In this document: piece by piece, positions 6,760 through 9,936 of the stretch
Layout: each line of letters begins with the position of its first letter
Numbering within the stretch: position 1 is the first letter of the stretch
Assembly (NCBI GenBank): GCA_902805535.1
Contig: CADCTN010000124.1
Location: 1-39,261 of the forward strand
Direction: 5' to 3'
DNA length: 39,261 nucleotides
Source of the DNA: an uncultured Blastococcus sp.
Lineage (GTDB): Bacteria > Actinomycetota > Actinomycetes > Mycobacteriales > Geodermatophilaceae
The notes under the pieces: generated by a model
What the model saw: only the letters and a program-made list of their open reading frames with translations
What the model was told of the DNA's origin: nothing
Databases searched by the model: none
Made by a program: the position numbers and the translations under genes

Positions 6760-9635
6760 TTGACCAGCCGGCCGGGGACGGCGACGACGCGGCGCACGGC
6801 CGCGCCGTCGAGGTAGCCGGCGATCTTGTCGTCCGCCCGGGCCGCCGCCTCCAGGGCCGCGGCGTCGGCGTCCGCAGGCACGCTGACCTGCGAGCGCACC
6901 TTGCCGTTGACCTGGACGGCGACCCGCACCGTGTCCTCGACCAGCCACCGCTCGTCGGCCACCGGGAACGGGTGCCAGGCCGAGGACCCGTCGTGGCCCA
7001 GCCGGGTCCACAGCTCGTCGGCCAGGTGCGGCGCCAGCGGGGCGACCAGCAGCACGAGCGTCTCCACCACCGGCCGCGGGACCGGCGACGTGGCCCCGTA
7101 GGCCTGGGTCAGGTGGTTGGTCAGCTCGGTGATCCGGGCGATCGCGATGTTGAACCGCAACGTCGTGAAACCGTCCCGGACGCCGGCGATGGTGCGGTGC
7201 AGCGCGCGCAACGTCTCCTCGCCGGGCTCGACGTCGTCCGCGGCGCGGACCGCGCCGGTCTGCTCGTCGAGCACCACGCGCCAGATCCGCTGCAGCAGCC
7301 GCTGCGACCCCACGACCGCCTTGGTCTCCCACGGCCGGGACTGGTCCAGCGGACCGGTCGACATCTCGTACACCCGGAACGTGTCCGCCCCGAAGGCGCC
7401 GATCATCTCGTCCGGCGTGACCATGTTCTTGAGGCTCTTGCCGATCTTCCCGTACTCGCGGTCGACCGGCTTGCCCTCGTGGAAGAACTGGCCGTCCTTC
7501 TCGACCACCTCAGCGGCCGGCACGTAGAAACCGCGCTCGTCGGTGTAGGCGAAGGCGGAGATGTAGCCCTGGTTCACCAGCCGGCGGAACGGCTCCTCGC
7601 TCGAGACGTGGCCCAGGTCGAACAGCACCTTGTGCCAGAACCGCGCGTACAGCAGGTGCAGGACGAGGTGCTCCACGCCGCCGACGTACATGTCCACGCC
7701 GCCGAGGTCACCGGCCCCGCGCGGACCCAGCCAGTACTGCTCCAGCTCCGGGTCGACCATGCGCTCGTCGTCGCCGGGGTCGAGGTAGCGCAGGTAGTAC
7801 CAGCACGACCCGGCCCAGTTGGGCATCGTGTTGGTCTCGCGGCGGTACTTCCTCGGGCCGTCGCCCAGGTCCAGCTCGACCGTCGTCCACTCGGTGGCCC
7901 GGGACAGCGGCGGCTCCGGGGCGGAGTCGACGTCGTCGTCGGAGAACGTCTTGGGCGAGTAGTCCTCGACCTCGGGCAGCAGCACCGGCAGCATCGACTC
8001 GGGAACGGCGACCGGCAGGTCGTCCTCGTCGTACACGATGGGGAACGGCTCGCCCCAGTACCGCTGCCGGCTGAACAGCCAGTCGCGCAGCTTGTAGGTG
8101 GTGGTCGCCTCGCCGTGGCCGTGCTGCACCAGCCAGTCGGTGATGCGCGCGATCGCCTCCACCTTGCCCAGTCCGTCCAGCGAGATCTCGTCGTTGGCGG
8201 AGTTGATCATCGAACCGGCGCCGGTGTACGCGCCGCCCACGAAGTCCGCCGGCGGCGCGACGGTGCGGACGACCGGCAGCCCGAAGGCCTCGGCGAACTC
8301 GAAGTCGCGGGTGTCCTCACCCGGCACGGCCATGATCGCGCCGGTGCCGTAGCCGGTCAGCACGTAGTCGGCGACGAAGACCGGCAGCTCGCGGCCGTTG
8401 ACCGGGTTGACGGCGGAGACGCCCAGCCACACGCCGGTCTTCTCGCGGCCGGCGTCCTGGCGGTCCAGCTCCGACCGGCGGGAGGCCTGCCGCTGGTAGG
8501 CCCGTACCGCCTCGGCGGGGGTGGTCGCTCCCCCGGTCCAGCGTGGGGTGGCGCCCTCGGGCCAGGCGGCCGCGGTCAGCGACCCGACCAGCGGGTGCTC
8601 GGGCGCCAGGACCAGGTAGGTCGCGCCGAACAGGGTGTCGGGGCGGGTGGTGAAGACCTCGATGGTGTGCTCGCCGGCCGCGAACCGCACCTTCGCCCCG
8701 GTCGAGCGCCCGATCCAGTTGCGCTGCATCACCTTCGCCGAGTCCGACCAGTCCAGCCGGTCCAGGTCGTCGATCAACCGGTCGGCGTAGGCGGTGATCC
8801 GCATCACCCACTGCTTGAGCGGCCGCCGGAACACCGGGAAGTTGCCCCGCTCGGAGCGACCGTCGGCGGTCACCTCCTCGTTGGACAGCACCGTGCCCAG
8901 ACCGGGGCACCAGTTCACCGGCGCCTCGTTCAGGTAGGCCAGCCGGTGGGCGTCGACGACCTTGCGGCGCGCGAGGTCGTCCAGCTCGGCCCACGGCTGT
9001 CCCGAGGGGTTGGTGCCCGGCCCCGGCTGCCGCGTGCCGGCGTCCAGCTCGGCCACCAGCTCGTCGATCGGGCGGGCCTTGCGGGCGGTCTCGTCGAACC
9101 AGGCGCCGAACAGCTGCAGGAAGATCCACTGGGTCCACTTGTAGTAGCCCGGGTCGATCGTGGCGAAGCTGCGGCGGTCGTCGTGGTCCACGCCCAGCCG
9201 GCGCAGCTGGGCCCTGATGGCCGCGATGTTGGCCTCGGTGGTGACCCGGGGGTGCTGCCCGGTCTGGACGGCGTACTGCTCGGCGGGCAGACCGAAGGCG
9301 TCGTAGCCCATCGGGTGCAGCACGTTGTCGCCGTCCATCCGCCGGAAGCGGCTGGTGACGTCGGTGCCCAGGTAGCCCAGCGGGTGCCCGACGTGCAGCC
9401 CGGCGCCCGAGGGGTACGGGAACATGTCCATCACGAAGTACTTGGGCCGGTCGGCGACCCGGTCGAAGCCCGCGCTCAGCCGACCGGTCGGGTTGGGCGT
9501 GTGGAACGTGCCGCCGGCCTCCCAGCGGTCCTGCCAGGCCAGCTCGATCTGCTGGGCCAGCGCCGGGGTGTAGCGGTGCGGGGGGACGTCGCCCGACGTC
9601 GGCTCGGCGTTCGGCTGGTCGGCGGTCTGGCTCAT
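6744..9635 (-). CDS. leuS: Leucyl-tRNA synthetase
   Basis: Charges tRNA-Leu with leucine. The 963-residue length and layout are those of a bacterial class Ia LeuRS. The HIGH-type motif is HVGH (81-84) within [16 protein letters not shown]. The CP1 editing domain shows [19 protein letters not shown]. The KMSKS loop reads KIGKS (730-734), followed by LKN, as in other actinobacteria. An anticodon-binding domain and a C-terminal tail follow. The ATG at 9635 agrees with the usual N-terminus. Translation is separated from the promoter by a 136-base leader that encodes a Leu-rich peptide and carries a terminator hairpin, so expression is probably set by charged tRNA-Leu. The gene converges with lipB. 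Confidence 0.97.
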
Positions 9636-9685
9636 CGCTGGTGCTCCCGGGTTCCAAGCAGTGGTGCGCTACCGACGGCGGACAC

Positions 9686-9710
9686 AAATAAACCCCTCAC
9701 TCAGGAGGGG
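9686..9710 (-). terminator. Intrinsic terminator of the leuS attenuator
   Basis: On the minus strand CCCCTC (9710-9705), loop CTGAGT, GAGGGG (9698-9693), extended by an A-T pair at 9711/9692, is followed directly by TTTATTT (9692-9686). This is one of the few hairpins in the window with a U-rich tail. It lies 50 bases before the leuS start and points towards it, so it must be controlled if leuS is to be expressed. Confidence 0.75.
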
Positions 9711-9743
9711 TCGCCGTGCTGTCTGAGCGTCTCAGGTCAGCAC
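9698..9743 (-). promoter_or_regulatory. Leucine attenuator: pause stem and alternative antiterminator
   Basis: Stem 1 pairs GTGCTG (9743-9738) with CAGCAC (9721-9716) and CTGAG (9735-9731) with CTCAG (9727-9723); it includes the leader stop codon. The 3' part of stem 1, CGCTCAG (9729-9723), can instead pair with CTGAGTG (9704-9698), which forms the loop and right-arm edge of the terminator. This gives a 7-bp antiterminator with one G-T pair. A ribosome stalled at the Leu codons would free CGCTCAG and block the terminator, the classical three-element arrangement. The pairings are read directly from the sequence; the mechanism is inferred. Attenuators of this kind have been predicted before leuS in some Streptomyces. 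Confidence 0.7.
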
Positions 9744-9772
9744 GGCCGGTGGAGCAGGAGCCGCCTGGTCAC
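9737..9772 (-). CDS. leuL-like: leuS leader peptide with three consecutive Leu codons
   Basis: An 11-codon open frame (GTG start, peptide VTRRLLLHRPC read literally, first residue Met) with CTC CTG CTC in a row and a TGA inside stem 1 of the attenuator. The -10 element TAGGCT ends six bases before the GTG, so the peptide is probably translated from a leaderless mRNA. Position, Leu run and overlap with the stem are what a ribosome-mediated leucine attenuator needs. There is no other reason to call so short a frame. Confidence 0.7.
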   Translation of the reverse strand: MTRRLLLHRPC

Positions 9773-9778
9773 CCCGCG

Positions 9779-9784
9779 AGCCTA
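9779..9784 (-). promoter_or_regulatory. -10 element of the leuS leader transcript
   Basis: TAGGCT on the minus strand, six bases before the leader-peptide GTG at 9772. The transcript would start at or near that GTG and carry about 137 bases before the leuS ATG. No clear -35 is visible. Confidence 0.5.
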
Positions 9785-9936
9785 CCGCTACGCCGCCCGG
9801 GGCCGGTCGCCCTCGGAGTCGCTGACGGCGACCGGCTTCCGGGGACCGGGATGTCATCCGTACGGGCGTGGTCTCCGCGGCTGGAGTGCAGACCGGCGCG
9901 ATCGCGACCGATACGAGTTGTGTGCAAGAGGATGTC

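Follow-up and report, generated by a model that had tools for sequence, protein, structure and literature searches.

Upstream of leuS, the gene for leucyl-tRNA synthetase, the genome of an uncultured Blastococcus sp. carries a short ORF with three consecutive Leu codons followed by two hairpins, and the question raised by this locus is whether, and by what means, the decoding of these codons decides between termination and transcription of the gene. The window analyzed is the whole stretch of 39,261 nucleotides from contig CADCTN010000124.1, of which positions 9784-9685 of the minus strand are of concern here. An earlier note on this DNA had read these positions as a ribosome-mediated leucine attenuator in which a 7-bp pairing competes with the terminator. 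Classical attenuators before leuS have been predicted in Streptomyces avermitilis and Streptomyces coelicolor, according to the passages on these genes in PMC1262725.

The anatomy of the leader is confirmed. A -10 element of the form TANNNT (TAGGCT, 9784-9779) lies 6 nt upstream of a GTG start codon (9772-9770), a leaderless-type arrangement, and the ORF that begins there (9772-9737; GTG ACC AGG CGG CTC CTG CTC CAC CGG CCG TGC TGA) comprises 11 codons and a stop, and encodes VTRRLLLHRPC, with CTC CTG CTC in a row at 9760-9752. The last of these codons (CTC, 9754-9752), referred to below as the control codon, ends 5 nt before hairpin 1 (9746-9713), the 5′ arm of which (9746-9738) takes up the last codons and the stop, and the 3′ arm of which is 9721-9713. 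The TGA (9739-9737) thus does lie in the hairpin, as had been noted, but the stem is one of 9 bp at the base and 5 bp (9735-9731/9727-9723) above a small internal loop, not of 11 bp. One base further on, an intrinsic terminator hairpin (ACCCCTC-CTGAGT-GAGGGGT, 9711-9692) is followed by the T tract TTATTTG (9691-9685) and by a block conserved in the family (TGTCCGCCGTCGG, 9684-9672). The presumed controlled gene, leuS (9635-6744, minus strand), starts with ATG at 9635, 56 nt from the end of the terminator, and was identified by TIGR00396 (880.6 bits against a cut-off of 548.4) and by Pfam domains. The predicted fold of 9771-9684 has an energy of -41.5 kcal/mol, compared with -29.1 (sd 3.45) for shuffled sequences (z -3.6), with none of 200 shuffles being as good. 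The -10 element, GTG-started frame, Leu run, and terminator with its T tail were therefore all found where they had been placed upstream of leuS.

A perfect 10-bp inverted repeat (GCCGGTCGCC/GGCGACCGGC, 9836-9802) was also observed on the upstream side of the leader promoter, in the interval that separates this promoter from a divergent GGDEF-EAL gene at 9868; in this neighborhood, the 40 nt before the -10 element are poorly conserved among relatives.

To see how far the arrangement is kept, leuS upstream regions were located through LeuS matches, whether or not a leader was present, and a leader was then scored by rule, wherever TANNNT was followed at a distance of 4-8 nt by a small ORF containing adjacent Leu codons (FL or L-x-L being accepted as well). 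In the family of the window, 111 of the 112 genomes searched gave a leuS match, and upstream DNA was taken for 110 of these; from the order, 40 regions were hand-chosen among the listed matches and 39 were obtained (a second copy in genome G054 was left unused, one stretch of G135 reached beyond its contig, and G066 was not in the set). The sequence sets used here and below overlap, and are not independent. Over all 164 leuS loci, a leader was found at 151 (136 distinct leaders), and was absent by the rule at 13. Within the family, it was present in 109 of 110 distinct upstream regions, bearing out the proposal of a leuS attenuator outside Streptomyces, in another actinobacterial family. In the order, it was present in 27 of 39 regions, the 12 without it including all three loci of one family (f8); L183-L185 may carry altered leaders. 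In the single family exception (L049), the Leu run contains one additional base that disrupts the reading frame, both hairpins being kept; it represents either an assembly error or a natural mutant. At five of the order loci scored as leader-less (L174, L179, L180, L206, and L208), a -10-like box was seen by eye some 6-9 nt upstream of the start codon of leuS, a position that would suit a leaderless leuS at these loci.

The distance between TANNNT and the start codon in the 136 distinct leaders is 6 nt in 66, 7 nt in 68, and 8 nt in 2, with none at 4 or 5 nt. The Leu run is kept as well, LLL being present in 119 and LL in 134 of the 136. The window thus has, immediately upstream of leuS, the small ORF with adjoining Leu codons that is expected of a leader of the Streptomyces lividans leuL2 type discussed below. 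Conservation is local. In 101 family sequences—a set including the window but not the most distant genera (L132-L139)—the mean information per column is 1.56 bits for the ORF (99 sequences) and 1.71 bits for the block from strand 2 to the terminator, compared with 0.51 bits over the 40 positions upstream of the -10 element and 0.41 bits further downstream, indicating more than chance. Furthermore, within the 52 nt after the terminator, TANNNT is absent from 100 of the 101 family sequences and present in one; a separate leuS promoter, or a transcript start downstream of the hairpin, is therefore not indicated.

The block just after the T tract (9684-9672 in the window), which contains TGYCC, is kept in 98 of the 109 leaders of the family and recurs in other families, and the same position in the Streptomyces leaders examined mostly holds a different sequence, such as CGTTTC. 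Two roles were considered for it and dropped. Its reading as the start of a second ORF was abandoned on inspection by eye, there being single-base indels among relatives. As a partner of the junction between hairpin 1 and the terminator, it did not outdo all three controls in six families (f1, f2, f11, f15, f5, and f16); in f1 (109 sequences), the values were -11.37 for own pairs, -11.13 for shuffled sequences, and -14.92 for foreign junctions. Own pairs beat all three controls in f3, f4, and f12 (7 sequences).

In a first alignment (A1), consisting of 43 of 45 leaders selected by hand from the family and the order, after exclusion of L196 and L198 for their long loops, hairpin 1 and the terminator are 99.3% paired, and 43 cells show double changes compared with 11.5 in shuffled alignments, with none of 500 shuffles being as high. 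A second alignment (A2) of 100 hand-chosen loci gave 99.1% of cells paired and 103 double-change cells compared with 27.0 (again none of 500 as high), counts that lean toward the model, as do those given below for the stop, the control codon, and mutual information in the same 100 leaders, since A2 was aligned with the covariance model built from A1 (R1) and its class loci had been found with R1. Double changes occur in five of the eight counted pairs of hairpin 1 and four of the six counted pairs of the terminator (A2). A hairpin with a T tract, as expected of an intrinsic terminator, was found in 133 of the 136 leaders; L201-L203 showed no terminator within the search range, and are missing from the terminator folding, duplex, and junction-pairing comparisons (n = 133). 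In all 100 aligned leaders, the gap between hairpin 1, as counted, and the terminator is 0-3 nt. The stop codon is less constant: in 93 of these leaders it lies 7 nt inside hairpin 1, in four it precedes the hairpin, and in three it comes later; hairpin 1 is thus kept whatever the position of the stop. Indeed, in L227, L236, and L237, the peptide ends in LLLT or LLLA, TAG immediately precedes hairpin 1, and the hairpin arm is kept. A role at the peptide level for the conserved Pro-Cys/Arg end was considered and is unlikely, because some leaders stop earlier or run past it and the hairpin stays.

In the 100 aligned leaders, exactly 5 nt separate hairpin 1 from the end of a codon that reads CTT in 86 cases and CTC in the remaining 14, whereas the two codons preceding it are CTG in 27 and 44, respectively. 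Counted from the other side, the fifth codon before the stop encodes Leu in 128 of the 136 leaders (CTT 109, CTC 19, and CTG 0). Among the Leu codons of leuS in 13 relatives, CTG accounts for 73%, CTC for 21%, and CTT for 4.6%, and CTT makes up 0.8% of Leu codons in four genes of the window. What is fixed is therefore the distance between the control codon and hairpin 1, and not that between the stop and the hairpin, CTY being at 5 nt in 100 of 100 leaders and the stop being variable. CUU and CUC are both decoded by the tRNA-Leu with a GAG anticodon, and, from what is known of ribosome footprints, the base of hairpin 1 should be covered when the CUY codon occupies the ribosomal A site. The locus thus possesses a leader peptide with control codons and a first (protector) hairpin within ribosome reach of them, as in a classical attenuator. 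The rule offered by these counts—a CUY codon, usually the rare CUU, located 5 nt upstream of the hairpin—is precise and testable.

These features are best read as those of a leuL2-type, ribosome-mediated transcription attenuator of leuS that would sense charged tRNA-Leu, a reading to which we give a probability of roughly 0.8. Sensing of tRNA-Leu is the part well supported by the sequence comparisons; its coupling to termination is what we infer. Two readings that dispense with decoding may be set against it. In the first, there is no regulation, and the small leaderless ORF together with a leaky terminator would merely set a low level of leuS; the Leu run, the CTT or CTC at a fixed distance, and the compensatory changes would then be hard to explain without decoding-dependent control, which makes this reading very improbable. 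In the second, the leader would be a riboswitch, a T-box, or a protein-binding RNA working independently of translation, which might account for an RNA that is conserved and structured and that includes a conserved block after the terminator; the conserved sequence is nevertheless a Leu-coding frame with its start at promoter distance, and a search of Rfam returned no match at gathering thresholds over the window, nor any at E≤1 over 9600-9900, T-box included. Such a leader is regarded as the least probable of the readings considered. Also counting against attenuation is the S. coelicolor ilvB leader, in which changes of the control codons are said to have been without effect on regulation (as cited in the relevant passage of PMC1262725).

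The part of the original proposal that did not fare well is the competing helix, in which CGCTCAG (9729-9723) was taken to be the antiterminator strand pairing with 9704-9698. In a classical three-helix attenuator, this pairing would form upon ribosome stalling. It is in the right place, the complementarity is present in the window, and the window's duplex scores -11.1 kcal/mol; in the four sequences with a CTGAGTG loop, the window being one of them, the duplex averages -9.40 with their own post-stop regions, compared with -6.46 for foreign post-stop regions and -6.92 for shuffled ones. A three-hairpin model has, moreover, been reported for the Corynebacterium glutamicum ilvBNC attenuator in the corresponding passages of PMC11857589. 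Yet one of the four CTGAGTG sequences (L100) yields only a weak duplex (-7.2), and the complementarity between 9729-9723 and 9704-9698 is in part a consequence of the sequence of the apical stem, CTGAG/CTCAG. More generally, a duplex between the post-stop region and the terminator loop beats both controls only in the CTGAGTG class and in a single further leader (L138), and the order leaders score -8.18 with their own partners and -8.14 with swapped ones. The helix is thus not a conserved feature: across the 43 leaders of A1, it is paired in 53.1% of cells compared with 51.8% in shuffles, 102 of 500 of which are as high. Of the covariation looked for in three helices, that of hairpin 1 and the terminator was found and that of the competing helix was not.

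Searches not tied to this particular pairing gave the same picture. The post-stop sequence beats its own shuffles as a partner of terminator strand 3 in 12 of 133 leaders, and of strand 4 in 40 of 133. A mutual-information scan of 100 leaders returned hairpin 1 and the terminator as its top two pairs and no strong complementary pair between the post-stop region and the terminator, the best such pair (z 3.4) being non-complementary, and the complementary-looking ones reaching z 2.3 or less. An imperfect pairing seen by eye in masked prefix folds (CA-GCA-c-GG/CC-TGC-g-TG) was dropped after duplex comparison. No conserved 2:3 antiterminator exclusive with the terminator was therefore found in the sets analyzed, and a classical three-helix attenuator is considered unlikely here. 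Overall, the proposal of a leucine attenuator of leuS stands as regards its Leu codons, spacing, hairpin 1, and terminator, which are conserved, with the two helices covarying, but not as regards the competing helix. The leuL2-type leader of leuS is therefore described as working like a ribosome-mediated attenuator, and is not called a classical three-helix one.

With the assumed antiterminator in doubt, the testable question becomes how a stalled ribosome stops termination without a conserved competing helix. One answer would be a two-helix device, in which termination would be favored by hairpin 1 itself, perhaps through pausing or through stacking on the adjacent terminator, and in which a stalled ribosome would permit read-through simply by keeping hairpin 1 from forming. 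Two helices only were found to covary, hairpin 1 ends 0-3 nt before the terminator throughout A2, and it is from hairpin 1, not from the stop, that the control codon keeps a constant distance, all of which accord with such a device. Thermodynamically, however, the terminator needs no hairpin 1: the median predicted probability of the terminator (n = 133) is 0.999 in free RNA, 0.999 with a stalled ribosome, and 0.998 when blocked through the stop, with values below 0.5 in three, two, and six leaders, respectively. Before the 3′ arm of the terminator emerges, pairing of the terminator loop is predicted to rise from 0.40 in free RNA to 0.61 when a ribosome occupies the last Leu codon and 0.74 when masked to the stop, while pairing of the 5′ arm hardly changes (0.29, 0.24, and 0.29). 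This rise upon blocking of hairpin 1 leaves room for a weak, non-conserved, and transient competitor, with which it would also fit. The two-helix device is thus a possible, albeit tentative, account of the coupling.

The attenuator reading preferred here would operate as follows. Transcription would start at or next to the GTG, and a 70S ribosome would load on the leaderless mRNA; for Blastococcus, the leaderless start, with which the promoter spacing agrees, and the leucine response are both suppositions, a leaderless start having been reported for the S. lividans homolog (leuL2 passage of PMC8079986). When charged tRNA-Leu is ample, the ribosome would pass CTC CTG CTC, reach the stop, and leave, after which hairpin 1 would form, the terminator would form beside it, and transcription would stop. 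When charged tRNA-Leu is short, the ribosome would wait at the Leu codons, chiefly at the CUY codon at its fixed distance from hairpin 1, and its leading edge would cover the base of that hairpin, so that RNA polymerase would read into leuS and the supply of synthetase would be restored. Loss of hairpin 1 may bring about read-through via a weak, non-conserved, transient pairing, which in the window would be that of 9729-9723 with 9704-9698, or through some other effect.

The spread of the element was followed with R1, which had been built from family and order loci only. It matched 107 of 108 family genomes, the unmatched one (G081) also being without a leuS match, and in all 107 the best match lies just upstream of leuS (tables compared by eye). 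Across the class, matches were obtained in 140 of 296 genomes drawn (E≤0.001, under stricter filters), and not in the other 156; of 30 class loci retrieved, 29 hold a recognizable LeuS N-terminus, which was not recognized in L229. Among named leuS loci (the best 80 of at least 582, grouped by record title), R1 detects the leader at 39 of the 46 actinobacterial loci and at none of 34 others, one further match of 13.9 bits being ignored. All 32 Streptomyces loci within these best 80 of at least 582 are matched, at 55.8-80.5 bits (E 2.8e-11 to 2.5e-17). Judged by LeuS, and again among the best 80 of at least 582 loci, the nearest named relatives are Blastococcus, Geodermatophilus, and Modestobacter, at 83-88% identity. 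The leuS leader is thus no Streptomyces oddity, being spread over a large part of the class and standing before leuS in almost all genomes searched within the window's family.

Weaker R1 matches in family genomes led to two further leader types of similar plan. The first is an Ile-rich leader before the citramalate synthase gene (cimA), with peptides such as MDSTRTILIT, MHTTGSIIV, and MHTSGTIIIA, and with a hairpin starting at the stop followed by a terminator. It was present in 17 of 17 cimA loci examined, which were chosen because R1 matched them: L239, in the window's own genome (contig C112, 4533-4648, minus strand; MDSTRTILIT), and L240-L247, L249-L251, L253-L256, and L258. The gene downstream was confirmed for L239 (TIGR00977, 614.8 bits against a cut-off of 450). 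This leader is a candidate isoleucine attenuator, and no report of a cimA leader was found, by title or abstract, in the literature searched. The second is a Val/Leu leader (ending, for example, in VNLVVA) with a hairpin and terminator before ilvB, seen in L240, L241, L248, L252, and L257; it lies near position 500 in L240 and near 480 in L241, some 8 kb from the cimA leader in both, and a downstream acetolactate synthase was confirmed for L240. The leuS leader may be a two-helix attenuator without an antiterminator, in which the ribosome would read an invariant CUY codon exactly 5 nt from a covarying hairpin next to the terminator, and loss of this hairpin alone would let RNA polymerase through; leuS (Leu), cimA (Ile), and ilvB (Val/Leu) would then be served by a similar plan. 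We regard this proposal as rather speculative; if true, the two-helix plan would be a general design in these actinobacteria, distinct from the trp-type three-helix switch.

With respect to known systems, the literature search, most subscription papers being beyond its scope, found no report of a leuS leader outside Streptomyces, and the passages matching "leus" in PMC3896937, PMC11995493, and PMC9413887 describe none. The LEU element before leuA is, like the present leader, an actinobacterial leader ORF that contains a run of Leu codons, but is described in the relevant part of PMC1262725 as a pseudoknot, a stem of which pairs the Leu codons with the leuA Shine-Dalgarno sequence. The gene in the window is leuS, not leuA, and a covarying terminator is present. 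Leaderless poly-Cys ORFs in mycobacteria are reportedly attenuators; to judge from the title of the report alone (Canestrari 2020, as cited in PMC13236596), they share with the present leader a leaderless ORF with control codons, and differ in responding to cysteine.

Closer in plan is the ilvB-II motif, or ilvBNC attenuator, of Corynebacterium, in which, according to the corresponding passages of PMC10272879 and PMC11857589, a uORF extends over most of the first helix, the second helix is the terminator, both helices covary, and the control codon in C. glutamicum is the Leu codon CUU. It differs in regulating the synthesis of branched-chain amino acids rather than leuS, and in having an antiterminator, modeled there with mutational tests (PMC10272879; PMC11857589). 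For the two Streptomyces leuS cases, antiterminator hairpins are likewise stated in the text and legends consulted of PMC1262725, whereas none is conserved in the sets analyzed here.

The closest counterpart is leuL2 of S. lividans TK24, which, in the passage of PMC8079986 devoted to it, encodes MRAVRLLLSEPR, lies before leuS, is transcribed leaderless, and has a hairpin and a U stretch downstream. The Streptomyces loci examined here yield the peptide MRAVRLLLSEPR or close variants of it. Shared with the leader of the window are the short ORF, the LLL run ending a few codons short of the stop, the hairpin and U stretch, and the position directly before leuS; the window's leader differs in coming from another family, in its GTG start, in a peptide ending in PC and not PR, and in a shorter loop of hairpin 1. 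As judged by model and peptide, the leader of the window is the same element as S. lividans leuL2, and this element is more widespread than reported in the papers found.
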